Of a stretch of DNA of 64,000 bases, positions 16,194 to 48,799 are shown in pieces. Both the position numbers and the translations under genes were made by a program. Within the stretch, counting starts at the first letter, position 1. Every line of letters begins with the position of its first letter. Location of the stretch: the NCBI GenBank assembly GCA_947450365.1, contig CANFVE010000001.1, positions 135,907 to 199,906 of the forward strand. Direction: 5' to 3'. A model generated the notes under the pieces. That model searched no databases, was not told the DNA's origin, and saw nothing but the letters and a program-made list of their open reading frames with translations. Origin of the DNA: Cytophagaceae bacterium (GTDB taxonomy: Bacteria > Bacteroidota > Bacteroidia > Cytophagales > Spirosomataceae).

Positions 16194-16211
16194 GTCTGTC
16201 AAAGGCTAAGG

Positions 16212-18005: not shown

Positions 18006-18054
18006 GAGTAAATTGGAATAGATTATAATAAGCGTTAAAGATACGGGTAATTTT

Positions 18055-19069: not shown

Positions 19070-22000
19070 ATGAAATACGTGCTTTGCCTTTTTTTGGCCC
19101 TACATGTTGTCCTCCCCTCTTTTGCGAAAGCACATCCCGATTTTATCAAAAGAGCTGATAAAGCACTGACCCAACAGAAACTGTATTCGGTCATGAATAA
19201 AGTCCAAATTCCCCCTTCGGGTGATAAACATGACTATATGAGCCAAGGGCCTTATTGGTGGCCTGATCCTAGCAAACCCAATGGCAAACCCTATATCCGA
19301 AAGGATGGTGTTCGGAATCCGGAAATCAAAAACATTACGGATTCTGATGAAATGGATGATTTAATCCTAGATGTGGAGGCTTTGATGGTGGCGTACCAAC
19401 AAACCAAGCAATCTAAATATGCCAAATTTGCCGCCACCCTGATCAAAACGTGGTTCCTCAACCCGGCCACCAAACAAAGTCCGAATTTAAAATTTAGTCA
19501 AGGGATTCCGGGTATCAACGACGGTCGGGGAATCGGGCTCATCGAAACCCGATTTTTATTCAAAATCACCGATGCCGCCAACCAATTACAAGGCTCCGGC
19601 GCATGGAGCGCAGCAGATCATGCCCAATTAAAACAATGGTTTAAAGATTTTTTGACCTGGATGACCACGAGCGAAATCGGTTTAGATGAGGCTGATGAAC
19701 ACAATAATCATGGTACGTATTACGATGTTCAAGTAATCAATTTTGCGCAGTTTACGGGACAATTTGAGTTGGCCAAAAAACAGATTGAGGTAACGAAGGG
19801 CCGGATGGCATCACAGTTGCGCCCCGACGGATCCCAGCCCCACGAATTAGCCCGCACGAAATCCTTCGGCTATTCCCTGATGAATTTGGAAGGCTTTTTT
19901 ATCATTGCCGAATTCGCCAAAAAACAGGGCATTGACCTATTTTCGTATCAAACACCCGAAGGTGCCAGCCTAAAAAAATGCCTCGATTTTTTAATTCCTT
20001 ATATTAAAAAAGATCGGGTGTGGCCGTACCAACAAATCGCCGAAATTCACTGGGCCGACACCGAAGAATTATTGCGAAAAGCTGCCGTCATTTTTCAGGA
20101 TCCCGCCTATGGGAGATTAGCCGATCAGGTCATCGCCCATGCGCCCTTGAAATTTTCTTCTGCGGATTTAGTAGACCCTTTTGTGGATGCGGCAAATTCC
20201 CGTTGGTTCTTTTTTAATTCCACAAGCCGGCCTTTTGGAATGGTTAATCTAAGCCCTGACAATGCCGTTCAAAGCGACTGGGGTGCGGGCTATCGCTACC
20301 AATTGGATAGCATCAAATGCTTTAGTCACATTCACGATTGGCAATTATCCGGCATTCCTGTCCTTCCGACCACGGGAGAATTCAAAGGCCATTTAGGCGC
20401 ATCCGTTTATGGATCTCCTTTTTCCCATGCCAAAGAAATCGCCAAACCAGGCTATCACGAGGTATTTTTAGAGGCCTATCAGATCAAGGCCCAATTAACC
20501 GCCACCACCCGCGTTGGTTTTCATCAATATACCTATCCTACATCCGACAAGAGTCATATTCTGATTGATTTGGCCACGTTTTTAGGACCATCGGATACCC
20601 AAAAATCCTTCGTGAAACAAGTAAATGAACACCGCCTGGAGGGTTATGTAATTATGGCGCCATCCCTGCGTCGACCGAAGGTCTTGCCTGTGTATTTTGT
20701 GATTGATTTTGACAAGCCATTTGCTCAAATCGGGGCCTGGCGGAAGGGTGTTTTGGAAGACTTTAAAAATCAAGTGGAAGGAGAAAAAGTAGGGGTTTAT
20801 GTGAGTTTTCCGACCAAAGCGAACGAACAACGCCTGATGAAAGTGGCCATTTCCTATGTGAGTACAGAGCAGGCGGCATTGAATTTAGCGACGGAATTGC
20901 CGCATTGGGATTTTGATCGAGTGGTCGAAGAAAGTCATTCGGAGTGGGATGCGTGGTTAGGTCGAATTAAAGTCGAGGGGAAAAACGAAACAGACAAAAA
21001 GCGGTTTTATACCGACTTATTTCATGCATTGCAGGGTCGACGGATCGTTAGTGATGTGAATGGAAAATATTTGGATATGACGGGGCCTTCTCCGCGCACG
21101 GGTCAGATTCCATTGGATGCGAATGGAAAACCGAAGTTTTGGCATCATAATTTTGATGCGATGTGGGGCGCCCAATGGACGATCAATACACTCTGGCATT
21201 TGGTATATCCGGAAGTCACACAATCCTTTGTGAATTCGATGCTCGCAATGTACGAGGATGGGGGTTTGATTCCTCGGGGTCCTGCGGGTGGAAATTATAC
21301 CTATGTCATGACGGGGGCCAGTTCGACGCCCTTTATTGTCAGTGCTTATCAAAAAGGCATCCGGGGATTTGATGTGCAAAAGGCCTATGAAGGCATGCGC
21401 AAAAATCATTTTCCAGGTGGGATGATGAGCAAGGCGGGCTACGAACACAAGACTTTTGTGGGCGGTGGAATTGAATATTACATGGATCGCGGGTATGTGC
21501 CTCATCCGCTAAGTTCTACCCGTTATGGTTTTCACATGGATGGTTCTGCGCAGACCTTGGAATATGCCTATCAAGATTATTCCTTGGCACAAATGTCCAA
21601 AGTCTTAGGCAAAACAGAGGATTATTCTTTGTTTATGAAACGTTCTCAAAATTATAAGAATATTTACAAACCGGATTTGGGTTGGATGTGGATCAAAAAT
21701 TTGGATGGAAATTGGGAAAAATCGGTCGATATTCTCCGCTACGACCATGGCTGGGAAGAAGGAAATGCGGCGCAGTGGACTTGGTTTGTACCCCATGATT
21801 TGAAAGGTCTAGCGGCCTTGATGGGCGGAAATGAGAAAGCGGTGGAAAAATTAAATCATTCGTTTGAATTGGCGGAAAAGCATGATTTTGTGTCAGGAAA
21901 ATCACACGATAAGGAAACGGAGGAGGCGAACCGACGGGTGTATTTGAATTTTGGAAATCAACCCTCCATTCAAACTTCTTATATTTTCAATCAATTAGGG

Positions 22001-22411
22001 GCACCCTGGCTGACGCAAAAATGGACGCGTAAGGTTATCGAAAAAGTGTATACAGGTCTATCTCCGGATTTTGGGTATAGTGGAGATGAGGACCAAGGGC
22101 TGATGGGCTCCCTGGCCGTGTTGATGAAAATCGGGATTTTTAGTATGGATGGAGGCGTGGCGACGACGCCTTATTATGATTTGAGTAGTCCGATTTTTGA
22201 TTCGATTGAAATTGATCTACATCCTGATTTTTATTCAGGAAAAAAGGTTCGGATAGAGGTGAAAAATAATTCGTTGGAGAACCGCTACATTCAGTCGGCG
22301 AGCTTCAATGGCAAGCCGATTAAATCCTGGATCTCTCACCATGACTTAGTCAAAGGAGGAAAAATTAGCTATACCTTAGGGGCTGAACCCAATAAAAACT
22401 GGGGAAATTAA
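19070..22411 (+). CDS. Fusion of alginate-lyase-fold PL domain and GH92 alpha-mannosidase-like domain
   Basis: Exported 1113-residue protein. Signal peptide about 1-19. Residues about 22-370 match the PF05426 alginate-lyase fold: YWWPDP at 62-67, the NNH triad region at 212-214 and Arg262-Tyr268 (RTKSFGY), the usual catalytic neighbourhood. Residues about 372-1113 match GH92: 'FWHHNFDAMWGAQWT', 'HGWEEGNAAQWTWFVPHD' (about 893-910), 'FGNQPSIQTSYIFNQLG' and 'GDEDQG' (1005-1010). The usual GNEP reads GNQP here, and the usual GNDD-G reads GDED-G, so calcium binding or activity could differ. A uronate lyase joined to an exo-mannosidase suggests one glycan with both residues. The small gene at 22413 follows by 1 bp. 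Family calls are by motif reading. Confidence 0.8.
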   Translation: MKYVLCLFLALHVVLPSFAKAHPDFIKRADKALTQQKLYSVMNKVQIPPSGDKHDYMSQGPYWWPDPSKPNGKPYIRKDGVRNPEIKNITDSDEMDDLILDVEALMVAYQQTKQSKYAKFAATLIKTWFLNPATKQSPNLKFSQGIPGINDGRGIGLIETRFLFKITDAANQLQGSGAWSAADHAQLKQWFKDFLTWMTTSEIGLDEADEHNNHGTYYDVQVINFAQFTGQFELAKKQIEVTKGRMASQLRPDGSQPHELARTKSFGYSLMNLEGFFIIAEFAKKQGIDLFSYQTPEGASLKKCLDFLIPYIKKDRVWPYQQIAEIHWADTEELLRKAAVIFQDPAYGRLADQVIAHAPLKFSSADLVDPFVDAANSRWFFFNSTSRPFGMVNLSPDNAVQSDWGAGYRYQLDSIKCFSHIHDWQLSGIPVLPTTGEFKGHLGASVYGSPFSHAKEIAKPGYHEVFLEAYQIKAQLTATTRVGFHQYTYPTSDKSHILIDLATFLGPSDTQKSFVKQVNEHRLEGYVIMAPSLRRPKVLPVYFVIDFDKPFAQIGAWRKGVLEDFKNQVEGEKVGVYVSFPTKANEQRLMKVAISYVSTEQAALNLATELPHWDFDRVVEESHSEWDAWLGRIKVEGKNETDKKRFYTDLFHALQGRRIVSDVNGKYLDMTGPSPRTGQIPLDANGKPKFWHHNFDAMWGAQWTINTLWHLVYPEVTQSFVNSMLAMYEDGGLIPRGPAGGNYTYVMTGASSTPFIVSAYQKGIRGFDVQKAYEGMRKNHFPGGMMSKAGYEHKTFVGGGIEYYMDRGYVPHPLSSTRYGFHMDGSAQTLEYAYQDYSLAQMSKVLGKTEDYSLFMKRSQNYKNIYKPDLGWMWIKNLDGNWEKSVDILRYDHGWEEGNAAQWTWFVPHDLKGLAALMGGNEKAVEKLNHSFELAEKHDFVSGKSHDKETEEANRRVYLNFGNQPSIQTSYIFNQLGAPWLTQKWTRKVIEKVYTGLSPDFGYSGDEDQGLMGSLAVLMKIGIFSMDGGVATTPYYDLSSPIFDSIEIDLHPDFYSGKKVRIEVKNNSLENRYIQSASFNGKPIKSWISHHDLVKGGKISYTLGAEPNKNWGN

Positions 22412-22412
22412 G

Positions 22413-22748
22413 ATGAAAAAGATTGGCTTTTTATTGTTTTTTATGTTGCTGGCGAGTTCTTTAAAGGCCCAAAGCAAAAAAAAATATGAGATAAAGTCGC
22501 CTCAATTTGGCTGTACGTTTGAGGATGGTTTTTTTGAGGCGAACATCATCGCTACCCAGGCGAAAAAAGTCCATCGATTTCAGACCCATGTGTATATTCA
22601 AGGTTGTCAAGTATTATCCATGCCCATCGAAAAAGTCCCTCAAGAATGGTGGGCTCTATTTCCTCCTACGGACATCGACGATGCCGGGAATACCCTCATC
22701 AAAGCCGAAAAAGGGATTCATTATGAAGTACATTTGATTTTGCCCTAA
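22413..22748 (+). CDS. Small secreted protein of unknown function
   Basis: A 111-residue product with a clear signal peptide (MKKIGFLLFFMLLASSLKA, cleavage before Q) and a mature part of about 92 residues. It has two cysteines (FGCTF and QGCQV), a Trp pair (EWWALFPP) and predicted beta strands, ending in 'HYEVHLILP'. I do not recognise a family. The start codon is 1 bp after the stop of the PL-GH92 gene, so the two are almost certainly cotranslated; it could be a binding partner or accessory of that enzyme. No active-site pattern is visible. Confidence 0.75.
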   Translation: MKKIGFLLFFMLLASSLKAQSKKKYEIKSPQFGCTFEDGFFEANIIATQAKKVHRFQTHVYIQGCQVLSMPIEKVPQEWWALFPPTDIDDAGNTLIKAEKGIHYEVHLILP

Positions 22749-22830: not shown

Positions 22831-24810
22831 TTACCGAGATAACCTGAAAAAGGAAACCCCATGGTAAGGGACTTTCGTGGTGATAATTTGGCTGACCCCT
22901 CGGTCTTTTTGCCGCCATACATCTTTGATTTTCCAGGTGCCCTTGAGACCGATTTCATTCAGATCTACCTTAATTTCTCGGGCCTTTTCATGTCCCCATC
23001 GGAAATAGGAGGCAGGGCTTTGCCCATAAAAGTCATGGTTAAAAATTCCCAAGGCAAAGTCGCCATTACTTAATTCGCGAAGCCAAATTTGGAATCCGTC
23101 CTTTTCTTGCACCAATCGACCTGCCTTACCCAAAGGGTCCTGGTGGATCGCAATGACTTCATCGTTTGACAACAAATTTAAGGTAAATGGATCTAGCCGT
23201 TCGATGGGGCAACCGATCAGCATCGGCGCAGCGATTAAACTAAATATACTGACATGGCTGTATTGTTCATCTGGCGATAGGCGGGTCGGATGCATCACAG
23301 GCCCGATGGACACATCGCCCAAAATCATCATATCCGGATCCGCCCAATGCCCTGGTCCTGAATAGGGGGACCATTTGTCCAGCGTAAAGGAAGTGTGGTA
23401 AAGGCTGGTCCAGGAATCTTTGATATCCGGGCCTGTCCGGTACATATTTGTCCATTTGACCCAGTCCTCCACTTGCTCAAAAGGGGCATTGTTCGAAATG
23501 CTAAATACGATATCCCGACCGGAATTTCGGAGCGCCTCGGACATGCGCTGGGTCGAATTCACATCAATCCGCCAATCGTATTTCAGGAAATCCACGCCCC
23601 AATCCGCCATTTGATTCGCATCTTGGATTTCGAAACGGTATTTGGCGATCCGACTAAAGGGTGGCCGATTCACCTTAATTACATCATGCGTTTCTCCACC
23701 TTGCGGAAAATCGGAGGAAGCACCTACATAGCCCCCGTAACTCGCGATGTAGGGGGTGGAATACACCCCACTTTTTAGGCCCATGGCATGGATTTTGGCG
23801 ATCATGCCGCGGATGTCGGGAAATTTTTCGTTGGGTTGCAGGGCCAAACTTTTGGGATCGCGGATGCCTTGCCAGGCATCGTCGATGTTAATATAAGACC
23901 AGCCATGTTGGTTCAATTTTTTCGAAACCATCGCTTCGGCGGAGGCTAATACTTTTTCTTGGTCGATATGCGCCTCCCATGAATTCCAGCCATTCCAGCC
24001 CAATGGGGGTGTCAAAGCGATCGCCTCGCCAATCCGAATCTCCAAGGGGATACTCGATTTTCCAAAGGTATTGATCGCTTGAACGCGCATTCGGTAAAGC
24101 CCTATTTGGTCGATTTTTCCCGTGATGATGCCCGTCGAAGGATCTAGCTTAAGTCCGGCAGGAAGTCCCTCAGTGCGGAAGCGCATGGGCCGTTCGCCGG
24201 TAGCGGCGATGCTGTATAAAAAGGGATGTTGGGGTCTGGCGCCAACGAGTTGGGGGGAATTAATCCGGGGTGTTTTAGGCGGCTCGGGTGTGAGGATGTA
24301 TTTTTTACCGGTATTTTGGATGTAGCCTGGGGTGAAATTTTCGAGGAGGAGGAGTCGGGCATTGGCCCAGTTGGCATAGGTCTTTTTATTCCCTACGCCC
24401 CCGACGGGGTCGGTGGTGAGCAAACCGAGTTGCTGGATCCCCCGCACATCCACATCCACGTCCACGGGGGCATCCCCGATCTTCATGTTTTTCTTTTCAA
24501 ACAGCACCTTTCCATCTCCGAGCACATAAAAGGACAAGGGAATTTCTTTGTTGCCTTTATCTTCTGGACCCACGGTCGCCTGAAATCTTGTCGCTTTTTT
24601 ATCTAACACAAAAGCCAATACCACCGGGGAAATAGCCCCCAGGCCACGGGTAAATTTTTGGCCTTGGATGCGTAGGGTATCTTTGATATAGCTTTGTTTG
24701 GCGATGACTGGCCTGAGACCTTCGGAATAGGTTTGAATGGGCAGGTCGTCTAACCAGAGTTGTTGCGCTTGTACAGAAATACTTAAGAAAATAAATAAAA
24801 TCAGTTTCAT
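22831..24810 (-). CDS. GH27 alpha-galactosidase with NPCBM and Ig-like domains
   Basis: Secreted retaining alpha-galactosidase of 659 residues. Domains in order: signal peptide about 1-15; NPCBM carbohydrate-binding domain about 17-157; putative Ig fold about 184-262; GH27 barrel about 266-565 with 'LGWNGWNSWE' and 'YINIDDAWQG'; C-terminal beta domain about 570-659. Asp412 in FLKYDW is the nucleophile and Asp462 in 'RTGPDIKDSW' the acid/base. It removes alpha-linked galactose side groups; some GH27 members instead act on alpha-N-acetylgalactosamine or beta-L-arabinopyranose. It is the last gene of locus A, 35 bp after the heparinase gene. Confidence 0.93.
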   Translation of the reverse strand: MKLILFIFLSISVQAQQLWLDDLPIQTYSEGLRPVIAKQSYIKDTLRIQGQKFTRGLGAISPVVLAFVLDKKATRFQATVGPEDKGNKEIPLSFYVLGDGKVLFEKKNMKIGDAPVDVDVDVRGIQQLGLLTTDPVGGVGNKKTYANWANARLLLLENFTPGYIQNTGKKYILTPEPPKTPRINSPQLVGARPQHPFLYSIAATGERPMRFRTEGLPAGLKLDPSTGIITGKIDQIGLYRMRVQAINTFGKSSIPLEIRIGEAIALTPPLGWNGWNSWEAHIDQEKVLASAEAMVSKKLNQHGWSYINIDDAWQGIRDPKSLALQPNEKFPDIRGMIAKIHAMGLKSGVYSTPYIASYGGYVGASSDFPQGGETHDVIKVNRPPFSRIAKYRFEIQDANQMADWGVDFLKYDWRIDVNSTQRMSEALRNSGRDIVFSISNNAPFEQVEDWVKWTNMYRTGPDIKDSWTSLYHTSFTLDKWSPYSGPGHWADPDMMILGDVSIGPVMHPTRLSPDEQYSHVSIFSLIAAPMLIGCPIERLDPFTLNLLSNDEVIAIHQDPLGKAGRLVQEKDGFQIWLRELSNGDFALGIFNHDFYGQSPASYFRWGHEKAREIKVDLNEIGLKGTWKIKDVWRQKDRGVSQIITTKVPYHGVSFFRLSR

Positions 24811-24845: not shown

Positions 24846-26648
24846 TTATTGAATAGGTGTCAGACTCACGGTGATTTTTTCTTGGCTATTGGGCCTCATG
24901 GCGAGTTTAAAGCCGACAAATCGTGTCCCTAGATTTTTAACATCGTAGTCGTGCGTGGGTTCGGTGGACCAGGTTTCCCAGGTTCCTTCAGCGCCTTCGA
25001 GAGCTAATTTCACCTTTTTGCCTTTGATTTCGAGCGTGGCGGTTCCTTTGGGTCCCGGGATGAAATTCGCGGAGGTAAGCATCGTCCATTGGACTAGGGT
25101 GTATTGATCCCGACTGTTGATTTGATCTTTGATTTCGAGTTTTTGTTGGTTTACCAAAGCGACATTTCGCTGGGTAGCGGCCACTTGGTCCGCATAAAGT
25201 GAACTTAAATCCATCGCAATTTCCATGCGTGAGGGGTCTTGGCTGATCACTTGGATGTCGGCTTTTCCGTTGACTTGTTGGTATGCCTGATTCATCGTCA
25301 ATGTATTATGCGCCAGGTTATTGTAGCGAAAGACGTCCCATCGCTCGGAATTTTGTTGGCTTCCCCATAATTTCACCCCTTTGGATTCGAGCGATTCATA
25401 ATCTTGCATGCCAAAATCCATGGCCCAGCGTTCGCCAAGCGCATCAAATACAAAACTGCCCACATCCATGTGACCATGGTTCACGGAGGGCGAACCGGCC
25501 TTTACACCCACATAGAGCGCATTTGGATCCGTCCAAGAGCTTTGCATCATGGCTACGGGATTTTTACCAGCGCCTATGTACATGAGGTCCTTGGGAGCTT
25601 CATGCGAGGCTAGGGAAATCCCTGAACCCCACACCATCGCCATAGGCAACAGGCGGTCATTGTCTGATTTTTTCCAGTCCTGAATCGTATTGATTTCGGT
25701 GTAGAGGAGCTCGGGTTTTTGGGTTTGTTTCGCAAACCAAACCATCGCGGGATGAAAGGCTACTCCGCCGCCGGCGTCCGAATAATTGAAATTCTTTTTC
25801 GCTGGCCCAACCATGTGCAGGAGGTAATTCGCGGTCGCAAAAAACCCGGGCGTTTTATTGAGACCAAAATCGGAGCCAAAGGCTTTTTCAATCGCGTCGT
25901 TGAACAATACCTGGAAAGACGTTCCATAACCCCAATAGCCATATCCTTCGGGATAGGCGCCGTCGGGTGCGAAATCGGCCATGGGTAATTCAATCGATTT
26001 CAGGGCGCGCTGGATGATTTTTTGGGCTAATTCCGGTTCATCCTCTGCAATGGCCAGGGCGCCAAAGCTCATGCCCGCATTACATACTTGGTTCCAGTTA
26101 TGGCTGGCTTTTAACCAGGAATTGTATTTAGGATCCTCGGAGGGCTTGATGCCTTTGTGTAAAATCGCCTCGCGAATGGTTTTTCTTGCTTCGGGAGATA
26201 ATTCCGAGAATAACCAGTCATATCCAATGGCCATCGCCATGGTCATTTCGGCGACATCGAGGAAGTGGCTTGGGTTCCAGTCGGAGAATTTCGCCACATT
26301 CACGAGTTCTTTTTCGGCACGTTGGGCGTATTTTTTGTCGCCTGTTAGGCGAAAGGCGTAGGCGAGGGTGAATTGTCGGCGCAGCATCTCCCGGGATTTG
26401 TCGAGGAGCCGACGGCCGATTTGAATGCGTTCTAACAAGGGTTTATCCAAATACTGATCTGCATCTGTGATGACCATGTTGTGTACCTTTTGCCAAAGGG
26501 CATCTTTTTTAATGGTTTCTTTGATGCCTTTTTCTTCGTTTTTAAGGAATAAAATGCGGGGATGCTGTTGGGCTGCCTTCACCAATGTCAGGTTCTGAGC
26601 CTGGGTACATGCAAACGGAAACAGGAGAAGGATGATAAGCTTTTTCAT
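24846..26648 (-). CDS. Heparinase II/III-family polysaccharide lyase
   Basis: Secreted uronate lyase candidate of 600 residues. After the signal peptide (about 1-18) comes an (alpha/alpha) toroid (about 30-340) with 'ASHNWNQVCNAG' (181-192) and 'DGAYPEGYGYWGYG' (229-242), then a beta-sandwich with 'NHGHMDVGSFVFDALGERW' (390-408). This is the arrangement of heparinase II/III-type lyases (PF07940), in which Asn, Tyr and His of these segments carry out beta-elimination. A longer reading frame reaches 26924 but the ATG at 26648 gives a signal peptide and an ATGA overlap with the PL gene's stop. The polysaccharide lyase family number is not assigned. It probably cleaves a uronate-containing backbone. 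Confidence 0.85.
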   Translation of the reverse strand: MKKLIILLLFPFACTQAQNLTLVKAAQQHPRILFLKNEEKGIKETIKKDALWQKVHNMVITDADQYLDKPLLERIQIGRRLLDKSREMLRRQFTLAYAFRLTGDKKYAQRAEKELVNVAKFSDWNPSHFLDVAEMTMAMAIGYDWLFSELSPEARKTIREAILHKGIKPSEDPKYNSWLKASHNWNQVCNAGMSFGALAIAEDEPELAQKIIQRALKSIELPMADFAPDGAYPEGYGYWGYGTSFQVLFNDAIEKAFGSDFGLNKTPGFFATANYLLHMVGPAKKNFNYSDAGGGVAFHPAMVWFAKQTQKPELLYTEINTIQDWKKSDNDRLLPMAMVWGSGISLASHEAPKDLMYIGAGKNPVAMMQSSWTDPNALYVGVKAGSPSVNHGHMDVGSFVFDALGERWAMDFGMQDYESLESKGVKLWGSQQNSERWDVFRYNNLAHNTLTMNQAYQQVNGKADIQVISQDPSRMEIAMDLSSLYADQVAATQRNVALVNQQKLEIKDQINSRDQYTLVQWTMLTSANFIPGPKGTATLEIKGKKVKLALEGAEGTWETWSTEPTHDYDVKNLGTRFVGFKLAMRPNSQEKITVSLTPIQ

Positions 26649-27781
26649 AGGTTGGAATAGGAATGCCATAAGATTGGATTTCGAATGGGTACGTTTCGGA
26701 TGACTTCTTGGTTGGTCGGGAAATGATCTAATTTTTTCCAAATATTCATTGCGGCCAGATCTCCGTGAATGCCAGCGAAAAAGAGGCATGGCTGGGCGAT
26801 GGGCCATTGGTCGAAATACATCACATCCGCAGGGTAGGTCCATTTCGATTTGTCTTGAATGTAGGGGCTTAAGAATTGAATGCCTTTTTGGATGCCTCGG
26901 CCATCCGGCATTTTCCAATCCCAAACCTGCAGTACATGCGCCAGGGTGGCCATGATGTCGAGATTAAAAAGTGAATATCCGTAGGGTTTGGTACGCTTTA
27001 GTTCCCAAGGGAAGGAACCGTCGGCCGCCATTTGGTTCGGGATGAATACCTGCATGTAGCGTTTCCGACAAAAATCCACCATGCCGGCATTGCCCGTGAA
27101 GGAGGCGAAAACTGCGACTTGGAGGGCCCAACAAGTTCCATGGTTGTTTAGCGCATCCCGTTCTGCGAGGCCATAGGGATGGGTCGTCAACCAGTTGGTA
27201 TATTCCTTAAACCAGGCTAGGCAGCCGGCATAATCGTCGGGAGAAATCTGGGATTTTAATGCCTCGAGGGCTTTAACCACTTCTAAGAAATGAATCGTAT
27301 CAATGATGCCGATGCCCCGGCCCGTCGCTTTCCCTTGAATGGCTTGTGCATATAAAAGGGAAGGATTCATGCGTGTTTCTGGGTCGATGAACCAGGCGCG
27401 AAAATGGGGGATGGCAGCCAGGGCATAGCGCTTTTGTCCGCTTAATTTATAGGCGGAGGCGAGGGAGCCTACGATGTCGCTGAAACGAATCATGGCGAGG
27501 CGATGGGCGACAAAATTCTCGGGGTTCGTTTCGCCATCGCGCTGGATGTAGGGCCCATTGGGGTTTGCCGGATCTGGCCACCAATAATCACCCTCTGAAT
27601 AAAAATCATGGCCCCCCCCGGCGGAACGAGGACAGCTTGTCGCGGTTACGGTAATCGGTTTAAGTCCAATTTGTTTATTGGCTTTCTCGATGGTTTTGGC
27701 GATCAGTTCTTTGGGATAAATGGCTGCATGCGTTTTTGGAAATACAAAAAAGCAGAGAAAAATTAAAAGGATTTTTTTCAT
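26645..27781 (-). CDS. Alginate-lyase-family (PF05426-like) polysaccharide lyase
   Basis: Secreted lyase candidate of 378 residues. Signal peptide about 1-19; 'YWWPDPANPNGPYIQRDGE' (66-84) and NNH at 212-214 with Tyr267/Tyr269 in 'RTKPYGYSL' place it in the same fold as the N-terminal part of the protein at 19070, and the NNH sits at the same residue number in both. PL families with this fold cut alginate or glucuronan; the substrate here is not fixed. An in-frame start at 27805 lies upstream, but the ATG at 27781 gives the signal peptide and an ATGA overlap with the sulfatase stop. It overlaps the heparinase start by 4 bp. Confidence 0.82.
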   Translation of the reverse strand: MKKILLIFLCFFVFPKTHAAIYPKELIAKTIEKANKQIGLKPITVTATSCPRSAGGGHDFYSEGDYWWPDPANPNGPYIQRDGETNPENFVAHRLAMIRFSDIVGSLASAYKLSGQKRYALAAIPHFRAWFIDPETRMNPSLLYAQAIQGKATGRGIGIIDTIHFLEVVKALEALKSQISPDDYAGCLAWFKEYTNWLTTHPYGLAERDALNNHGTCWALQVAVFASFTGNAGMVDFCRKRYMQVFIPNQMAADGSFPWELKRTKPYGYSLFNLDIMATLAHVLQVWDWKMPDGRGIQKGIQFLSPYIQDKSKWTYPADVMYFDQWPIAQPCLFFAGIHGDLAAMNIWKKLDHFPTNQEVIRNVPIRNPILWHSYSNL

Positions 27782-29316
27782 TTGACACCGATGTTTTGGG
27801 CCCATTGGGTATATTTAGCGAGTAAATCATTGCGTTTTTTAGGCATGCTTTTGGCCAAATCATGCGCCTCAATGCGGTCGTTTTTTAGGTTATACAATTC
27901 CCACTTTTTGACCTCATCGTCCCAGACTAATTTCCAATCTCCTTCTCGAATGGCTCGGTTGCCTTGATGTTCCCAGGCGATGAAGGGATGTGGGGCTCGA
28001 ATTTTTTGTTTTAAAATGGGCAAGAGGCTTTTGCCTTGTATGGCTTTGCTTGGCCTAATATGACTCATATCTAGAATCGTGGGAAACAGGTCCATGATGT
28101 GTCCTACTTGATTCGTTTGAAATCCTTTTTTGATGAGTTTTGGATAATGAACGATCAAAGGCGTAGAAATTCCGCCCTCATGCATCCAATGTTTGTACAT
28201 TCGAAACGGCGTATTTCCGGCGGAAGCCCATTCTTTTCCGTAGGTGGTATAACTGCCTTTGGTACCCACGGGGCTTGTGAGGGATTTTTGATAGCCTTCC
28301 TCGCCGAGGTCGCGAACGGAGCGGTCGTCAAGGATCTCATGGCAGGCGCCATTGTCCGATAAAAACATAAATACGGTGTTATCCCATTCGCCTTTGGCTT
28401 TTACTTCTTGCATAATCCGACCGATGCCCTCATCCATAATTTGCATCATGGCCGCATAGGTAGCCATTTTATCGATGTATTCCGTTGGATTTTTAATCGT
28501 ATCAAAACGCGCGATGGCCGGATCGATGGGAGGTAATTGGGAGATATGTAATAGTCCGGATTTTTGTTGACGCACAAAACGTTCTTCCCTTAATTTTTCC
28601 CAGCCTTTCTGATAGGTTTGGCGGTATTGGTCGATGACCTTTTGGGGCGCATGCAGCGGCCAATGGGGTGCGGTATATGCGACGTATAGGAAAAAGGGTT
28701 TTTCTTTTTTGGCGGTTTTTAGGTAATGAATGGCTTTGATAGAAATCGCATCGGTCATGTAGAAATTCGAATCGGGCGTGAATTTTTGGTTATCCTCGAC
28801 GAGTTGACGTCTGGCCAATAATTCATAATAACTATTAGCGCCCGAAATGAGGCCAAAATAATGATCGAAACCCCGTTGGTTCGGCCAATCTTCTACTTGT
28901 TCTCCCACGTGCCATTTGCCTGACATAAAGGTTTGGTAGCCATTTTTGCGTAATTCCTCTGCGATGGTGGGCGTTTCTAAATTAAGGAAACCTTGGTAGG
29001 GTTGGTACGCCTTGGAATGATCGTATTTTCCCGTGTTTACCATAAGTCCCATACCCGCCTGATGCGGATACATGCCCGTGAGGAGCGAGGCCCTGCTGGG
29101 GCAGCAACGACCAGCATTGTAAAATTGCGTGAAAATCGCCCCTTTTTTGCCGAGCCTATCAATGTTAGGCGTTTTAATTTCCGATCCAAATATCCCAATA
29201 TCGCTATAACCCATGTCATCCACTAAAATCACGATGACATTGGGAGCTGTTTTTTGAGCAAAAACGCTTGCTACGTTCAAGCAAAGTAGGCTGAAAAAAA
29301 TATAGCTGATTTTCAT
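27778..29316 (-). CDS. Formylglycine-dependent sulfatase (S1 family)
   Basis: Secreted sulfatase of 512 residues. A signal peptide covers about 1-20. 'ILVDDMGYSD' provides metal ligands and CCPSR at 71-75 is the site where Cys71 would be converted to formylglycine; 'FMSGKWHVGE' and 'FMFLSDNGAC' are the later metal/sulfate-site motifs. It would remove sulfate esters from the glycan processed by locus A. The gene overlaps both neighbours by ATGA (upstream GH105-like, downstream PL). The maturation enzyme is not in the window. Confidence 0.93.
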   Translation of the reverse strand: MKISYIFFSLLCLNVASVFAQKTAPNVIVILVDDMGYSDIGIFGSEIKTPNIDRLGKKGAIFTQFYNAGRCCPSRASLLTGMYPHQAGMGLMVNTGKYDHSKAYQPYQGFLNLETPTIAEELRKNGYQTFMSGKWHVGEQVEDWPNQRGFDHYFGLISGANSYYELLARRQLVEDNQKFTPDSNFYMTDAISIKAIHYLKTAKKEKPFFLYVAYTAPHWPLHAPQKVIDQYRQTYQKGWEKLREERFVRQQKSGLLHISQLPPIDPAIARFDTIKNPTEYIDKMATYAAMMQIMDEGIGRIMQEVKAKGEWDNTVFMFLSDNGACHEILDDRSVRDLGEEGYQKSLTSPVGTKGSYTTYGKEWASAGNTPFRMYKHWMHEGGISTPLIVHYPKLIKKGFQTNQVGHIMDLFPTILDMSHIRPSKAIQGKSLLPILKQKIRAPHPFIAWEHQGNRAIREGDWKLVWDDEVKKWELYNLKNDRIEAHDLAKSMPKKRNDLLAKYTQWAQNIGVK

Positions 29317-31145
29317 TTCTTGGATAGTTTAAGTTCTTCCATGATGGCCAAGGAGAAAAAGGCCGAGGTATAGGCACATGTAATTGGAAACCAAGGTCTA
29401 AATGCGGCACCAACAGCAGAGTGGATGGTTTTTCCAATAATCCCCCCATAAGCTTGTCGGTCAGCCCCTTGGTATTGATTGGCCAAACACCAGGTTAGTG
29501 ATTTTCGAGCCATGGCCAGGTATTTCGGTTCTCCGGTGGCCGCATAAAGCTGGTAGAGTAAATAACTCCACAAGGCTGTGCCTTTTTCGCTGATGCCAAC
29601 TTTCTCCACGGGCTCATCCGTAATAAAGTTCCAATGACCATCGGCTTGTTGCCAAGCCTGCATCCGATTAGCCATTTTTTTTGCTAACTCGAGATAGGGT
29701 CCTTTCGGGTTGCTTCGATGCGCGGCTAATAATCCTTCCATGGCCCATCCGAGTCCTCGGGTCATTTTAATCGTGGGTTGAACGCCTGTTTTTTGATGCC
29801 AACCACGTTCCCATAATCCATCCGGCCGACTCAGTTTTTTCAAATGCTCTTGCATGTATTGATCCGTCATTTTGAAATACTTGGGGTCTTTCGTGATGGC
29901 ATATAAATTAGCCATTCCTTCTGCGCCAAATCCGGATTCGTCGATGGTATGTTCTGAAAACTTTTGTTCATCTACATAATAATCTTGTGGGATAAGGCCA
30001 TATGTGGACATTAACTTATCCGTTGTCTCCGCGAGTAATTTCGCGGCATCTAAATATGTTTGATTTCCCGTTTCGGCGTATAGGGGAATCCAAGCCCAAC
30101 CGGAAAAGAAATTTGCATCGGAGGTACTGTAACATTGTTGGTACCCAAAATCTGGCAAAATAATATCTCTTCTCCAGCGGGAGAGCGGTACACCATACAT
30201 GGGATGCGTGACGTCCATGATTCGGGCATTGATTGCCGACTGCCCTATTTTTTCAGCTGCAGCTAAAAGCCCGGAAGCGGAGGTTGAAATAGCTAAGTCC
30301 GCTATTTTGCGGGCGTTTAGAAGAACTTTGACGGCGGGACCTGAACCCCAAATCCAATGGTTGGAGCGATAACTTTGTGCATCCAAATCATAAAATAGAT
30401 TCAGACTCCCATAGGTCAGGCTACTCGGATTATTGTTTTGAGAGCGAAGGATATAGTCCACGGATTTTGAGAGGGCTACTTTCAGATTTTTCTGAGTGAG
30501 TTGGCTGCCTGTGAGTTCCGACTTTCTTGTGGTTTTTGAGGACCAATTGATGGTATGTTTGATCGTTTTGGATACTCCATTTTCTGTAAAATGTAGGGTT
30601 ATCGTACCTTTCCAATCGTCACTTAAAGGGGTAAAATGATAGCTGATGGCCCCATTTAATGGCTGCACGATTTGTTGAACATAAAAATCTTTAATCTGAC
30701 GCGCTCGGGGTTCGATGTAAAGCGAGTTTTCCCAATCCTCCAAACGGTCTGCTTCCAGGGTGATTTTATTTGTATGGTGTTCGGCTTTTTTGAAAAAATG
30801 CTGATTCCATGCGGAAACGGTGGCCATGGAGTCCAGAATAATATGTCCTTTCATGCCGGGTGTTCGAACAAAATCGACCACGGGGTACCAGATTTCCTTG
30901 TTGGGTATGGGATTAGGTAATACGGTTTGAGGTTCGGGGTGGTCGCTTGAAATATCCGTGATCTTGGTGATTCGAGTATTTCGATCACTTCGGATTTGAA
31001 TTTTTACGTCTTGAACATGCGCAGCTAGGTTGGCATGAAGGGTGATTCCAGTTCCTTCCTGGTTCCAAGACACCTCGTTTTTATTTGCTTGTGCAAATAC
31101 TATTTCGGAGGAAAGTAGGAATAAACTGATGATGATAGATCTCAT
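29313..31145 (-). CDS. GH105/GH88-like unsaturated uronyl hydrolase with N-terminal beta domain
   Basis: Secreted 610-residue protein. Signal peptide about 1-18, a beta-rich region about 25-205, then a helical (alpha/alpha)6 part about 220-605. In the latter, 'TIDESGFGAEGMANLY' (400-415), 'TRGLGWAMEGLLAAH' (462-476) and 'SEKGTALWSYLL' (519-530) resemble the GH105/GH88 active-site blocks. Such enzymes hydrate the C4-C5 double bond left by lyases. The match is weaker than for the next-door GH88 and the catalytic Asp cannot be fixed; another (alpha/alpha)6 family is possible. It overlaps the GH88 stop and the sulfatase start by ATGA. Confidence 0.6.
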   Translation of the reverse strand: MRSIIISLFLLSSEIVFAQANKNEVSWNQEGTGITLHANLAAHVQDVKIQIRSDRNTRITKITDISSDHPEPQTVLPNPIPNKEIWYPVVDFVRTPGMKGHIILDSMATVSAWNQHFFKKAEHHTNKITLEADRLEDWENSLYIEPRARQIKDFYVQQIVQPLNGAISYHFTPLSDDWKGTITLHFTENGVSKTIKHTINWSSKTTRKSELTGSQLTQKNLKVALSKSVDYILRSQNNNPSSLTYGSLNLFYDLDAQSYRSNHWIWGSGPAVKVLLNARKIADLAISTSASGLLAAAEKIGQSAINARIMDVTHPMYGVPLSRWRRDIILPDFGYQQCYSTSDANFFSGWAWIPLYAETGNQTYLDAAKLLAETTDKLMSTYGLIPQDYYVDEQKFSEHTIDESGFGAEGMANLYAITKDPKYFKMTDQYMQEHLKKLSRPDGLWERGWHQKTGVQPTIKMTRGLGWAMEGLLAAHRSNPKGPYLELAKKMANRMQAWQQADGHWNFITDEPVEKVGISEKGTALWSYLLYQLYAATGEPKYLAMARKSLTWCLANQYQGADRQAYGGIIGKTIHSAVGAAFRPWFPITCAYTSAFFSLAIMEELKLSKK

Positions 31146-32308
31146 TTTTTATTTTTTTGACGGACAAGTGCTTCGAGGAAATAGTAATCGGAATAGACGA
31201 TAGGTGCGTCAATTTCGAAGCCATTCGGTAATCCGCCTGTACTATGAAGTAATAACATGCCATGAGCAGATGCCACCGGAGCCAAATAGGCGGGAGAACT
31301 TAAGCTGCTAATGATTTGATCGGCATAATTTTGGTAATAGGTTTTTTTATAGGGTTGCAAGGTAGCCAGGTCATAAAAAGCCGAAGCCATTAATGCTGCT
31401 GCAGAGGCATCACGTGGGGCATGGGGAATTTTAGGGTCGTCATAATCCCAAAATGGAACTAAATCGAGGGGCATGCGTGGATGCTTCAATAAAAATTGGG
31501 CGATGTTTTCGGCCAAATGTAAATATTCTTTTTTACCCGTTTCCCGGTAGCACATGGTATATCCATAGAGCGCCCAGGCTTGTCCACGGGCCCAAGACGA
31601 TTCATGTGCGGCGCCTTGGTGGGTATTTTTTTTCATGACTTGGCCCGTATTCGGGTCATAATCGATGACATGGTAGGAGCTAAAATCGGGCCGAAAATGG
31701 TTTTTCATCGTCGTATTCGCGTGGGAAACTGCGACCTTATAGAAAGCGGAATCTTTGGTCTCTTTAAAGGCCCAGAAAAGAAGTTCGAGGTTCATCATGT
31801 TGTCGATGATGGTCGGATTTACCCACTTATCCCGACTATGGTCCCAAGAGCGAATTACCCCCGTGTTTGGATTAAATCGCTTGATGTTGGTCCTCGCGGC
31901 TTGGATTAAAATTTCTTTATAAGCGGGATTTTGGCTAAGTCGTAATCCATTTCCAAAACTCGTATACATTTTAAAACCCATGTCGTGTGTGCCCGCATTC
32001 ATCTTTTCTTTTTCAAGGGGCAGGGTGAAATTTTCGGCTTGAGCGGCCCATTTTTTATTGCCTGTTAATTCATAGAGGTACCATAATTCTCCACCAAAAA
32101 ATCCGGAACACCAGTCTTTGGAACCCACTAAAATCAAGGAGTCATTCCGTACCGTACGAGGAAAGATTTTCTCTCCTTTCGGGATGGCGTAAATGGAGGC
32201 TTCGCGGAGGGCGTAGTCCATTTGAGATTCTAATTTCGAATAAAGGGGGTTTTGGGCATTTGCTTGGAAGATACAACATCCCAACAAAAGAGAAGTCAAT
32301 AATTTCAT
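31142..32308 (-). CDS. GH88 unsaturated glucuronyl hydrolase
   Basis: Secreted enzyme of 388 residues (signal peptide about 1-18). 'AGTHDMGFKM' contains Asp109 and 'NPTIIDNMMNLELL' contains Asp169; the 60-residue spacing matches the two catalytic Asp residues of characterised GH88 enzymes. 'SSWARGQAWALYGYTM' is also typical. It would release unsaturated uronic acid from oligosaccharides made by the lyases, indicating a uronic-acid-containing polymer. It is the first enzyme after susD in locus A, with a hairpin terminator in the 93-bp gap. Confidence 0.92.
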   Translation of the reverse strand: MKLLTSLLLGCCIFQANAQNPLYSKLESQMDYALREASIYAIPKGEKIFPRTVRNDSLILVGSKDWCSGFFGGELWYLYELTGNKKWAAQAENFTLPLEKEKMNAGTHDMGFKMYTSFGNGLRLSQNPAYKEILIQAARTNIKRFNPNTGVIRSWDHSRDKWVNPTIIDNMMNLELLFWAFKETKDSAFYKVAVSHANTTMKNHFRPDFSSYHVIDYDPNTGQVMKKNTHQGAAHESSWARGQAWALYGYTMCYRETGKKEYLHLAENIAQFLLKHPRMPLDLVPFWDYDDPKIPHAPRDASAAALMASAFYDLATLQPYKKTYYQNYADQIISSLSSPAYLAPVASAHGMLLLHSTGGLPNGFEIDAPIVYSDYYFLEALVRQKNKK

Positions 32309-32401: not shown

Positions 32402-33868
32402 TTATTTAGCGATGGACGGATTGTTAATCAATTCGACATCAGGTAAATATAACGTAAAGCGTGTTGGTGCTGGACGTCCCGCAGCGGTAGCCACAGCCGC
32501 CGCACGGCCCGTACGAACCATATCCCACCATCGTTTTAATTCATACATGAATTCATATCCACGTTCCGTAAATAGTAAGTCATCAAAGGCTTGTTTTGAT
32601 AAACCCGCTGGGAAATCAGCCACGGCACTTGCCTTGGTTAGGTCTACGCCATAACCCCGACGACGAACTTGATTCACCGCATTATATGCATCCGCAGTAG
32701 GGCCATTTAATTGGTTTTCACATTCAGCAAAAATCAAAAGCGCCTCTGCATAGCGGTATAAGTAGAAATCATTTCCTGCTGCGGTTTCCTCTGGAGCTGC
32801 ACCATCGCGGTATTTACCAAACATGTAAATAGATCCCGGAATCATATTCGCACGAATTTTGGCTCCATTGATTGTAATGGTATCCATTAAATTCCAAGTT
32901 CTACGCAAATCTTTTTTGTCCCATCCTTTGATTAATGGGCAATCACGCACCATTAAAGCAGAAATACCCCGAGCGGCTAAACCTGCTTGTAACGCACGTC
33001 CTTCGAAGGCGTAGGTCGGTAAGAAAGATCCTAACGCTTTTTGTTGAGAAAATTTAATTGCGAAGATTTCTTCAGAGTTCGTCGGGTTACTTGGTGAATA
33101 TAAGGTCTCCAACGATTTCACTAAATCATATCCGTATTTGGCTTTGTTGTCAATCACATCCTTCGCCTTAGCTCGTGCATTGGTATAATCTTTTTGCCAT
33201 AAATAGACATCTGCCATAGTCATTTTCGCGGCACCGATGGTTGCCCGACCCGTATTTGCTTCCGCTACCTTAGCCGGTAAATTCGCTTCTGCATAGGTTA
33301 GATCTTTCATGATTTGATCAATGATCGTTTTTGAATCCGAAAGGACAATCGCGGTGTTGTTTGAGTTTTCGATCGGCGTTAAACGCAAAGGTACTGGACC
33401 AAACATACGAACCAACCACCAATAACAAGTAGCCCGGATAAAATAAGCCTCTGCTTTGAAGGGTGCTTTGATGTTATCCGCTAGGGTTTTATCATCTTCG
33501 ATCGTTTTAATGATCAAATTCGCTTTTCCAATCGCTTCGTAGAAAGTAGTCCAGCGGGCAGCGTTATCATTTCGTTGGGGTTCAAAATTATAATTCATAT
33601 AATTCGTTCCTCCACCTACAGGCAATTGACAGAACTCGCTTAGTCCTTCAATGTCACGTGTAAGTGTGGATTCCCAGAGTCGACCTCTTGACCGAGAAAA
33701 TGGTTCATAGGCACCGATGACAAACGCATCCAAAAGCGCCTTGTTTAAGGTGGAAATTTGGTAACGAGAAGGAGGGATTTCCTCTAGGTATTTGTCGCAA
33801 CTCGACATCAATCCTACGACCAATAACAGTAGGAGTGGTAGGGTATATAATTTATGTAACTTTTTCAT
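32402..33868 (-). CDS. SusD/RagB-family glycan-binding lipoprotein (locus A)
   Basis: Outer-membrane lipoprotein of 488 residues with lipobox ending LMSSC. The start 'YLEEIPPSRY', mid-region 'RATCYWWLVRMFGPVP' and C-terminal 'LLFTERGYEFMYELKRWWDMVRTG' are typical of SusD/RagB. It would bind oligosaccharides at the cell surface and sit on top of the SusC barrel encoded just upstream (29-bp gap). Downstream lie a terminator-like hairpin and the enzyme operon. Confidence 0.95.
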   Translation of the reverse strand: MKKLHKLYTLPLLLLLVVGLMSSCDKYLEEIPPSRYQISTLNKALLDAFVIGAYEPFSRSRGRLWESTLTRDIEGLSEFCQLPVGGGTNYMNYNFEPQRNDNAARWTTFYEAIGKANLIIKTIEDDKTLADNIKAPFKAEAYFIRATCYWWLVRMFGPVPLRLTPIENSNNTAIVLSDSKTIIDQIMKDLTYAEANLPAKVAEANTGRATIGAAKMTMADVYLWQKDYTNARAKAKDVIDNKAKYGYDLVKSLETLYSPSNPTNSEEIFAIKFSQQKALGSFLPTYAFEGRALQAGLAARGISALMVRDCPLIKGWDKKDLRRTWNLMDTITINGAKIRANMIPGSIYMFGKYRDGAAPEETAAGNDFYLYRYAEALLIFAECENQLNGPTADAYNAVNQVRRRGYGVDLTKASAVADFPAGLSKQAFDDLLFTERGYEFMYELKRWWDMVRTGRAAAVATAAGRPAPTRFTLYLPDVELINNPSIAK

Positions 33869-33897
33869 CTTGATTAAATTTTACGAATTGTTTGTCA

Positions 33898-36891
33898 TTA
33901 AAAGGAAACGGATAAACCTAATGTAATGGTCTTAGAACCCGGATATGCACCGTTGTCCACGCCTTGTTGAAGCGAGTTACCACTAAATGCATTTACTTCT
34001 GGATCATATCCTTTGTAATTGGTAAACGTGAGCAAATTTTGGCCAGATAAATAGATGTTTGCCGACTTATAGTATTTACTAGAAGGCAGGCGATAATCTA
34101 AGCGAATATTTCTCAACCGAACATAAGAACCGTCCTCGATGAAAAGATCAGATCTACGTTGTACATCAGATGCCTTTGGTTTTGGATAATAGGCATATAT
34201 GTCAGCAATCCGATTATACGCTGGGTTAGGGGTAGCCGAAGTAAAATACAATTGGTTATCAATGCTATTTCCTTGCACGCTTGACCAAGTCATCGTAAAG
34301 TTGAATGACTTATAGCGTAAACTACTGGTTAAACCAATGATCGACGTAGGATATGGACTACCAATCATCACGTTGTCTAATCCATTAATCACGCCGTCTC
34401 CGTTTACATCCACGAATGTTTGATCCCCTGTGGCACTAAAACCATTGAATTTCGGTCCGTAGAAAGCTGATAAAGGATCTCCTGTCGTAACACGCGAGTT
34501 ACCTGAAGTTAAGGGCAAATTGTTTTTAGTAGCTACAACCTTGTTTTTGTTAATGGATAAGTTGGCGTCTACGGTCCAACGAAGGTCTTTCGTCGTGATA
34601 ATATCCGTACCTAAATCCACTTCAAATCCTTTGTTTTCTACCTCACCCACGTTGTCAATAATGGTGTTATATCCAGCTGATGGAGGAAGTTGGACCGTGG
34701 CCAACAAAGATGTTGTATTCTTAATATAGTAATCCAAGGTCAAGCGATAGCGCTCATTTAAGAATCCTAAATCTAGACCTACGTTACTTTGCGTTGTCGT
34801 TTCCCAAGTTAAATTGTCATTCGGTAAGGTAGGAGAAAGACCTACAGCTAAACCTGAACCGGCACCTTGTGCGGTGTTAATGATGTTACCGAGCAATAGG
34901 GATTGATAGGGTTGGATCGCTGTATTTCCGGATTGTCCCCAGCTACCGCGAACTTTCATGTTGGAAATCGATGGAATGTCTTTAATAAATGCTTCCTCGG
35001 ATGCACGCCATGCAAATCCTACCGACGGGAAGATCGCATATTTTTTGTTTTTACTAAATACAGAAGAACCGTCTTGACGTAAACTTGCCGAGAATAAATA
35101 ACGGTCCATGTAACTCAAACGTAAGCGTCCAAATGCTGAAATCAAGCGATTTTCGATGATATCTGTAACGGGTTTGGATACACTTCCTGCCGCTGAAAAG
35201 CTATAGTTTTTCAAGTCATCTGAAATGTATTTAGAACCTAATAATTGGATGATTTCAGAGGATGAATTTTGAAGGGATGCTCCAACGATTCCTTCAAATG
35301 AAAGCTTTCCAAACATTTTTTTGTATTCCAAAAAGTCTTCAGCGACCAAGTTGGTGGCTGCCGTTGTTGTTAATTGGCCAATCCCCACACCGGAGCTCAA
35401 TTGTGCCAATACAATCGGGAAATACAAATCTGCCCGAGCATTGAAATAATCAACGCCTAAACGGGTTGTATTGATTAATCCTTTTGCAATAGTCACATTA
35501 AAATCCATACCGCCTTGGAAACGCATCACCGTGTTGCGGTCTAAAGACTCACGCGTGAAGGCCATTGGGTTTTCTACGTCGATACCACTGAAGGAGAAGG
35601 GACGAGGGTTACCATAGGATCCGTCTGGATTGTAAACAGGAGTAGTTGGCGAAGCCAAGACCATCGCACCCACCCCATTTTTACCCGTGTAGCGGGTAGG
35701 TGAGTTATCGGAAGCGGAGAATCCATTGGATACCGTTTTCGAAGTAGTCATATAGGTACGAAGACTAACGCGATCGTTTACTTTCGTGGTTAAGTTGAAA
35801 CGTAATGCACCTCTATAGAAATCAGAACCCAGGATAATGCCGGGTTGATTTAAATAATTACCAGATACATAGTATTGTGTTTTATCATTTCCACCTGAAA
35901 AACTTAGCGTGTGATTTTGTTGCAAGGCTGTACGCATGACTTGGTCTTGCCAATTCGTTTCAGCATTGGTTGCATTGCTAATTTCAGCCGGAATGGCTAA
36001 GCCGGAATTGGTATAATATTGTTTGAAGAAATCGAGCATTTGAACGCCAGTCATTAAGTTCAATTTCTTTTGAACTTGTTGGTGCGTATAGGAAGACTCA
36101 TAACTTACTTGGTTTTTGCCAGCCTTACCGCTTTTGGTGATGATTTGAACAACACCGTTGGCTCCTCTAGATCCGTAAATGGCTGTTGCCGATGCATCTT
36201 TTAATACCTCAATGCTTTCGATGTCATTGGCATTGAAAGAAGACATACCATTCATGGCACGGTTGTCATTGTTGTATTGGGGAACCCCATCAATGACAAA
36301 TAAAGGTTCGTTCCCTCCTGCAATCGACGTAACTCCACGTACACGAATGGAAATACCTGCGCCGGGTTGACCAGAACTTTGTTGCACCTGAACCCCAGTC
36401 ATACGGCCTTGCATGGCACTTTCTACGGAGGTTACAGGCATCTCTTGGATCGTCGCTGCTTTGATGGATGTAGCGGAACCTAAGAAATCTACTTTCTTTT
36501 GAACGCCATATCCAGTCACGACCACCTCTTCCAAGGCCTTCGTGTCTGGCGCTAATTGAACATTCAAAATCGATTGTGATCCGATTTTGATTTCTTGATT
36601 CTTATATCCCACAAAGGAGAAAACAAGCACATCTCCTGCATTTACTTCGATGCTAAATTTACCATTGGCATCTGAATTTGTACCTGCTGTACTTCCTTTT
36701 TTCGCGATGGTAACGCCAGGCATCCCTACGTTATTTTCATCTGTAACAGTTCCGCTAATTTTTTGCGGGGCGACTTGCACGAGGCGGTCGAAAGCTGGGG
36801 CTGCCTGGACCGAGGATGGCCAACAAGCACCTGTGCCAGCGAGAACTCCAACGAGTAGAATTCGGCTCCAATTTTTTAATTTTTTTTTCAT
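33898..36891 (-). CDS. SusC/RagA TonB-linked outer-membrane transporter (locus A)
   Basis: TonB-dependent oligosaccharide importer of 997 residues. After the signal peptide come a carboxypeptidase-D regulatory-like domain (about 44-105: 'ISGTVTDENNVGMPGVTI'), a TonB-box-like 'LEEVVVTGYGVQKK', a plug ('IYGSRGANGVVQIITKSG') and a barrel ending in 'TITLGLSVSF'. It partners with SusD downstream and imports fragments of the target glycan. Two LacI-type operator-like boxes lie about 130 bp upstream of its start, suggesting repression until a sugar signal arrives. Confidence 0.95.
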   Translation of the reverse strand: MKKKLKNWSRILLVGVLAGTGACWPSSVQAAPAFDRLVQVAPQKISGTVTDENNVGMPGVTIAKKGSTAGTNSDANGKFSIEVNAGDVLVFSFVGYKNQEIKIGSQSILNVQLAPDTKALEEVVVTGYGVQKKVDFLGSATSIKAATIQEMPVTSVESAMQGRMTGVQVQQSSGQPGAGISIRVRGVTSIAGGNEPLFVIDGVPQYNNDNRAMNGMSSFNANDIESIEVLKDASATAIYGSRGANGVVQIITKSGKAGKNQVSYESSYTHQQVQKKLNLMTGVQMLDFFKQYYTNSGLAIPAEISNATNAETNWQDQVMRTALQQNHTLSFSGGNDKTQYYVSGNYLNQPGIILGSDFYRGALRFNLTTKVNDRVSLRTYMTTSKTVSNGFSASDNSPTRYTGKNGVGAMVLASPTTPVYNPDGSYGNPRPFSFSGIDVENPMAFTRESLDRNTVMRFQGGMDFNVTIAKGLINTTRLGVDYFNARADLYFPIVLAQLSSGVGIGQLTTTAATNLVAEDFLEYKKMFGKLSFEGIVGASLQNSSSEIIQLLGSKYISDDLKNYSFSAAGSVSKPVTDIIENRLISAFGRLRLSYMDRYLFSASLRQDGSSVFSKNKKYAIFPSVGFAWRASEEAFIKDIPSISNMKVRGSWGQSGNTAIQPYQSLLLGNIINTAQGAGSGLAVGLSPTLPNDNLTWETTTQSNVGLDLGFLNERYRLTLDYYIKNTTSLLATVQLPPSAGYNTIIDNVGEVENKGFEVDLGTDIITTKDLRWTVDANLSINKNKVVATKNNLPLTSGNSRVTTGDPLSAFYGPKFNGFSATGDQTFVDVNGDGVINGLDNVMIGSPYPTSIIGLTSSLRYKSFNFTMTWSSVQGNSIDNQLYFTSATPNPAYNRIADIYAYYPKPKASDVQRRSDLFIEDGSYVRLRNIRLDYRLPSSKYYKSANIYLSGQNLLTFTNYKGYDPEVNAFSGNSLQQGVDNGAYPGSKTITLGLSVSF

Positions 36892-40808: not shown

Positions 40809-40834
40809 TTCAATAATCGTTAAATGTGGGTTAA

Positions 40835-43957: not shown

Positions 43958-44033
43958 AGTTTGATTTGTAAATTGTTTGTAATCGAAAGCCAAATATGAT
44001 ACTTTTTTAGTAAATTTTATAATTAAAAGTATT

Positions 44034-48752: not shown

Positions 48753-48799
48753 GATAGGTTTAGCTTGGGCGTTTGTTGCTGCCCTAGTCACAATATACG

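Follow-up and report, generated by a model that had tools for sequence, protein, structure and literature searches.

Fusion of a PL38-type lyase with a GH92-type alpha-mannosidase in one gene of a Cytophagaceae bacterium

Do a polysaccharide lyase and an alpha-mannosidase that share one polypeptide also share a substrate? The question is raised by a gene of a Cytophagaceae bacterium (GCA_947450365.1, a 61-contig assembly), located within 64,000 nucleotides of contig CANFVE010000001.1 (positions 135,907 to 199,906), a stretch hereafter called the window. The open reading frame (ORF) at 19070..22411 of the plus strand encodes 1113 amino acids (aa) and comprises, according to Pfam, a PL38-type lyase domain and a GH92 domain behind a signal-peptide-like N-terminus. 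The present analysis indicates that this is a rare, inherited and real two-enzyme fusion, the pairing being new while both halves belong to known types.

Two enzyme domains in a single frame

The Pfam profile PF05426 (Alginate_lyase) matches residues 40-318 over its whole length (1-275 of 275) with 288.7 bits against a cut-off of 22.2, and the PL38-type lyase region delimited by Pfam and alignment extends over 19187..20023 (+). The GH92 N-terminal beta-sandwich PF17678 follows at residues 367-595 (20168..20854, +; profile 1-236/236, 209.5 bits against 34.5), and then the GH92 catalytic barrel PF07971 at residues 601-1104 (20870..22381, +; profile 1-463/464, 460.1 bits against 24.6). The TIGR01180 model also matches the protein, with 435.3 bits against a cut-off of 249.55. 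Domain borders and the loci of relatives place the junction at residues 360-366 (20147..20167, +), where no separate linker domain was found. By profile coverage, a single polypeptide carries two complete domains, a PL38-type lyase and a GH92-type alpha-mannosidase. The domain search thus bears out the initial annotation, which had read this ORF as a PF05426-type lyase with a complete GH92 domain, and the PF07971 score disposes of the possibility, raised there, that residues 372-1113 hold no GH92 match above threshold. The first 20 residues (19070..19129, +) resemble a signal peptide by eye, with no lipobox visible among them, and hydrophobic N-terminal starts are also present in the fusion's relatives.

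The lyase half shares its fold with the PL38 lyases BoPL38, Aly38A, CUL-I, TpPL38A, RiPL38 and Amuc_0778. The YWWPDP and NNH motifs are found where the initial annotation had put them. In the alignment, Y62 of YWWPDP (residues 62-67; 19253..19270, +) pairs with Y91 of BoPL38, H214 of NNH (residues 212-214; H214 at 19709..19711, +) with the catalytic H243, and Y268 (19871..19873, +) with the catalytic Y298; D79, Q144 and N213 correspond to D108, Q173 and N242. In BoPL38, proton abstraction is assigned to H243 and Y298 (PMC13169297). The residue just before Y298, H297, is replaced by G267 in the fusion, and 3nfv has glycine there too. With 382-404 residues, the chains of BoPL38 and 3nfv hold no second enzyme, whereas the PL38 domain of the window is joined to GH92. 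PL38 enzymes degrade hyaluronan and chondroitin (PMC13027841; PMC11790493), and alginate and glucuronan are also known PL38 substrates. Because of these known activities, the lyase half most likely opens 4-linked uronate by beta-elimination.

The GH92 half was compared with BT3990, whose general acid is Glu533 and whose general base is Asp644, according to the part of the source available, and with 131 aligned close relatives. The latter combine, with partial overlap, 10 fusion loci, the window itself and the best 120 of 3000 matches from a full-length search that scored 7996 candidates. The general acid E897 (21758..21760, +) and the DED motif D1006-E1007-D1008 (22085..22093, +), which ends in the general base D1008, are present in 131/131 relatives. 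The same holds for W424 (20339..20341, +), which pairs with Trp88 of the BT3990 +1 subsite although it stands beside gaps in the alignment. At the position of BT3990 His584-Glu585, the fusion has H946-D947 (21905..21910, +), with His kept in 130/131 relatives and Asp in 123/131. The alpha-1,2 subtype of GH92 is marked by a His-Glu pair in the 580-loop, a Trp in the N-domain and the DED motif, as far as the accessible text of PMC12858847 goes. The DED motif and the His are present in the fusion, the Trp is present by alignment, and the Glu is replaced by Asp947. BT3990 and two further enzymes that we take to be alpha-1,2 exo-alpha-mannosidases, BT2199 and SpGH92, have His-Glu in the +1 loop, in contrast to the His-Asp and the N-terminal lyase of the fusion. 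The GH92 half therefore looks most like the alpha-1,2 type, its +1 loop being altered. It shows an alpha-mannosidase-type site only and is expected to be a Ca2+-dependent exo-alpha-mannosidase. Since the catalytic residues are retained in each, both halves look catalytic.

Inheritance and rarity of the fusion

Both halves stand in one frame with an identical junction in 12/12 loci from other assemblies (L005-L016). Within the genus, 12 of 38 genomes, that of the window included, carry 13 copies of the fusion, three of which are cut by contig ends (G151, G157, G167); these genomes and the 12 loci overlap as sets. In one more genome, G164, all that is present is a GH92 tail at a contig start (91% over 32 residues), ahead of the same next genes; it was left out of this count. 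The ratio of nonsynonymous to synonymous substitution rates (dN/dS) is about 0.03-0.07 in both halves for seven pairs, the comparison of the window with L005 being saturated. Purifying selection on both halves is strong. In trees built from chosen rows (40 for the lyase, 34 for GH92), all 11 fusion rows form one 100/100 clade for each half, which in the lyase tree also includes the locus L021 and two standalone lyases of the same genus (L143, L144). On its tree, the GH92 of the fusion clusters with standalone orthologues from Spirosoma, Emticicia and their relatives (64-72%), apart from the standalone GH92 of the genus itself (62-63%).

L021, from the same genus, has a lyase-only frame of 395 codons at the matching locus, with the order of the common genes unchanged and identities to the window of 83-97% for eight upstream genes and 70-97% for downstream genes. 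When its last 66 bases are compared without gaps with the window's GH92 tail, the beginning of the next gene serving as anchor, 41 positions are equal; no other position of the window gives more than 32, and 41 was reached in 0/100,000 shuffles. L021 lies beside the window on the lyase tree (96/82), and a grouping of the fusions without L021 is rejected by the approximately unbiased test (p-AU 8.9e-5). Because of this GH92-tail scar and the tree position, the fused form most likely came first, and L021 later lost the GH92 half by deletion. The remaining lyase frame is itself under constraint (dN/dS about 0.08).

The initial annotation had known of no well-described enzyme with this pairing, and the searches agree on its rarity. 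PL38 and GH92 occur together in 2/120 of the listed full-length matches, and the same two proteins are found among the best 120 of 434 matches of a lyase-region search, which covers proteins of about 612-1948 aa. A hand count of these 120 gave 67 proteins with PF05426 alone, 14 with an esterase, 11 with GH5, six with GH88, four each with GH97 and GH3, three with PL8, and two each with GH92, GH27 and a heparinase-type domain. Sulfatase, GH78, beta-helix, metallo-beta-lactamase and PF01739 partners occur once each; the partner names are in part those that we take the Pfam accessions to denote. A second enzyme-type domain is thus present in 51/120 listed matches, the two GH92 included and the metallo-beta-lactamase and PF01739 excluded. 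The 67 PF05426-alone proteins are mostly 700-830 aa long, and many may be PL38 tandems. Fusions to GH88, esterase, GH5, GH97, GH3, PL8, GH27 and sulfatase join PL38 to an enzyme as here but with other partners, and those with esterase or GH88 reach 58-60% identity to the fused lyase half and belong to the same part of the tree. As PL38 domains are often joined to other carbohydrate-active enzyme or esterase domains, lyase fusions as such are common, which qualifies the initial reading; judged from these matches, PL38 fusions are a recurrent kind in which GH92 is a rare partner. No description of a PL38-GH92 fusion was found in titles and abstract openings of the open literature, CAZy module tables or subscription papers being places that may list one; papers naming both families do not treat such a fusion in their accessible parts.

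Other GH92 enzymes are also extended at the N-terminus. The additional domains of the Neobacillus novalis enzyme (7nsn) are described as noncatalytic, and that of the rumen Bacteroidales protein L024 resembles a carbohydrate-binding module (PF14683). L024 and L034, also from rumen Bacteroidales, have a 340-aa N-terminal part, the PF14683 assignment applying to L024, the only one scanned. Putative diatom glucuronomannan loci of marine Flavobacteriia resemble the window in combining GH92, sulfatases and SusCD, but they belong to marine hosts and have at least two GH92 variants per locus, and the accessible part of the report mentions neither PL38 nor a fusion (PMC9723552). In three Kutzneria genomes (L068, L069, L071), a PL38 gene stands back to back with a divergent GH92 gene (29-30% identical) on the opposite strand; the two may have been paired independently. 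In Verrucomicrobia, proteins of about 780 aa (L061, L063, L064) show tandem PL38-like domains with 43-45% and 36-37% identity to the fused lyase half. Eight Bacteroides-type frames of 775-801 codons (L070, L072, L073, L075, L076, L078, L079, L081) have a PL38 domain ahead of a stretch of about 420 residues, which has no Pfam match in L070, the one scanned.

The neighbouring utilization locus

Directly behind the fusion lies an exported-looking ORF of 111 aa (22413..22748, +) with no Pfam match above cut-off. It occurs in 9/12 of the relatives' loci and in L021; L014 is without it, and the L011 and L013 loci break off within the fusion. L021 retains it while lacking the GH92 half.

On the minus strand follow a GH27 with an NPCBM domain (22831..24810; Pfam and sequence) and a PL35-type lyase (24846..26624, start placed by eye) that scores 682 bits to 8khv, which is GAGase II. 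The longest ORF of this lyase gene (24846-26924, -) begins at a TTG codon and overlaps the next gene; a start near 26624 is likelier. The overlapped gene encodes a second PL38-type lyase, PL38_2 (26645..27805, -; Pfam, BLASTP), with 36-38% identity to the fused lyase half. It had been called a close cousin of that half and turns out to be a distant paralogue (36% over 328 positions by BLASTP), which the tree places well away from the lyase-half clade, on a terminal branch longer than any other. The minus-strand series continues with a Sulf1-type sulfatase (27778..29316; Pfam), a 610-aa protein (29313..31145) and a GH88-like hydrolase (31142..32308), the last recognized by PF07470 at 27.4 bits against a cut-off of 26.6. 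The structure model gives the 610-aa protein a beta-sandwich and a barrel in an unsaturated-glucuronyl-hydrolase fold, its Pfam evidence being weak; it is present in 9/38 genomes of the genus, every one a fusion carrier. A first SusD and SusC pair (32402..36891, -; 32402-33868 and 33898-36891) is followed by a PL33-type lyase (37204..39126, -; sequence, 361 bits to 8r73) and by a second pair of SusD and SusC-like genes (39192..43993, -; 39192-40808 and 40835-43993). A GH20 gene (44089..45678, +) and two sulfatases (45853..48791, -; 45853-47322 and 47319-48791) complete the series. With PL35, PL33, PL38_2, the GH88-like hydrolase, sulfatases and SusCD, the locus corresponds by sequence to a glycosaminoglycan (GAG)-type set.

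The L021 locus, whose contig stops in the SusD of pair 2, also lacks the GH27, the 610-aa gene and SusCD pair 1. For the 610-aa gene, no match was found anywhere in the L021 assembly (G132, 92% complete); the absence of GH27 and SusCD pair 1 refers to the locus, the rest of the assembly not having been searched for them.

Just upstream of the fusion, at 14274-18092 (-), stand a cytochrome c/DUF7133 protein and a 3-keto-disaccharide hydrolase, whose families recur beside standalone GH92 orthologues. Fourteen loci of such orthologues outside the genus, chosen from 31 full-length matches of at least 64%, were compared over about 6 kb on each side. A GH27-NPCBM type is present in 4/14 (in one case as an edge fragment), a cluster with a 3-keto-disaccharide-hydrolase domain in 7/14 and a GH95 cluster in 4/14, with one member per cluster scanned by Pfam. 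The 3-keto-disaccharide-hydrolase and cytochrome neighbours hint at an oxidative glycoside route.

One substrate or two

On balance, we lean towards a relay of both halves on a shared sulfated uronate glycan. We infer the secretion of the fusion, the two activities, the common substrate and the order of the steps. In the first step, the lyase half would use H214 and Y268 to deprotonate a 4-linked uronic acid at C5 and eliminate the sugar at O4, so that the chain would end in a 4,5-unsaturated uronyl residue. Either the GH88-like or the 610-aa protein, acting as the locus's unsaturated glucuronyl hydrolase, would then clear this end, and the GH92 half, with E897 as acid, D1008 as base and the expected Ca2+, would release alpha-mannose masked by or attached to the uronate. 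The rest of the glycan would be left to the sulfatases, PL33, PL35, GH20 and GH27. A shared substrate is suggested because the two domains are fused, the fusion has persisted, selection acts on both halves, and L021 lacks the GH92 half together with the uronyl-hydrolase-fold gene. That uronate adjoins alpha-mannose in the target glycan, as initially predicted, is plausible. A more specific version, namely an undescribed sulfated polysaccharide with alpha-mannose on or beside 4-linked uronate, degraded in three steps, two of them in one protein, by a relay whose middle enzyme is inherited with the fusion, is offered tentatively.

Several observations weigh against a common substrate. The PL33, PL35, PL38_2, GH88-like, GH20 and sulfatase genes would fit a glycosaminoglycan-like polymer without alpha-mannose. 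Homologues of the window's PL33, PL35 and PL38 occur in 0/14 standalone GH92 loci within about 6 kb, so that the GH92 seems to stem from a different type of cluster; apparently a lyase of uronate clusters acquired a GH92 partner that had its origin in sulfatase clusters. Among the matches listed, the closest non-fused PL38 and GH92 genes on one contig within the family are about 91 kb apart. In G141, the fusion stands alone among neighbours that include a two-component system, with no homologue of the window's locus nearby except a SusC-like gene about 12 kb away. L021 and G141 show that the halves and the locus are separable.

In a different reading, rather unlikely in our view, both halves are active but their linkages have nothing to do with each other: the lyase would cut a glycosaminoglycan-like chain and GH92 would act on mannose of the carrier protein's N- or O-glycans, the fusion providing co-location only. 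In its favour, PL35 and PL33 are GAG-active families, the hyaluronan and chondroitin activities of PL38 members agree with them, GH20 and GH27 suit glycoprotein or GAG sugars, and GH92 enzymes are known to act on N-glycans, according to the accessible part of PMC9522356. However, homologues of the window's sulfatases stand near the standalone GH92 in 10/14 loci, no PNGase-type or endoglycosidase-type gene was found among the chosen subset of neighbours scanned by Pfam, and the GH92 half and the uronyl-hydrolase-fold gene are missing together in L021.

It is quite improbable that one half only works while the other serves as a binding or docking module. The replacement of BoPL38 H297 by glycine would fit this idea, as would the structure model of the fusion, which is weak around Y62 (predicted local distance difference test, pLDDT, 46-47 for residues 61-80) and E897 (50 for residues 891-900). 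Yet the model is based on a shallow alignment of 52 rows of mixed architectures, and the blocks around H214 and Y268 reach pLDDT 95 and 89. The catalytic residues and the low dN/dS of both halves also argue against it, as does the persistence of the lyase half alone under constraint in L021. An artefact of assembly or annotation joining two genes, which the initial annotation had considered for residues 350-400 and which a 61-contig assembly might suggest, is refuted by the identical in-frame junction in the 12 loci of other assemblies and by the spread of the fusion in the genus.

The L021 allele, with its lyase half alone, offers a natural comparison. More generally, chains in which nature has joined a lyase to a glycosidase point to bonds that adjoin in real glycans. 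If the two halves do share a substrate, some environmental glycan would combine sulfate, 4-linked uronate and alpha-mannose, and the fusion would be a two-in-one tool for dissecting it.
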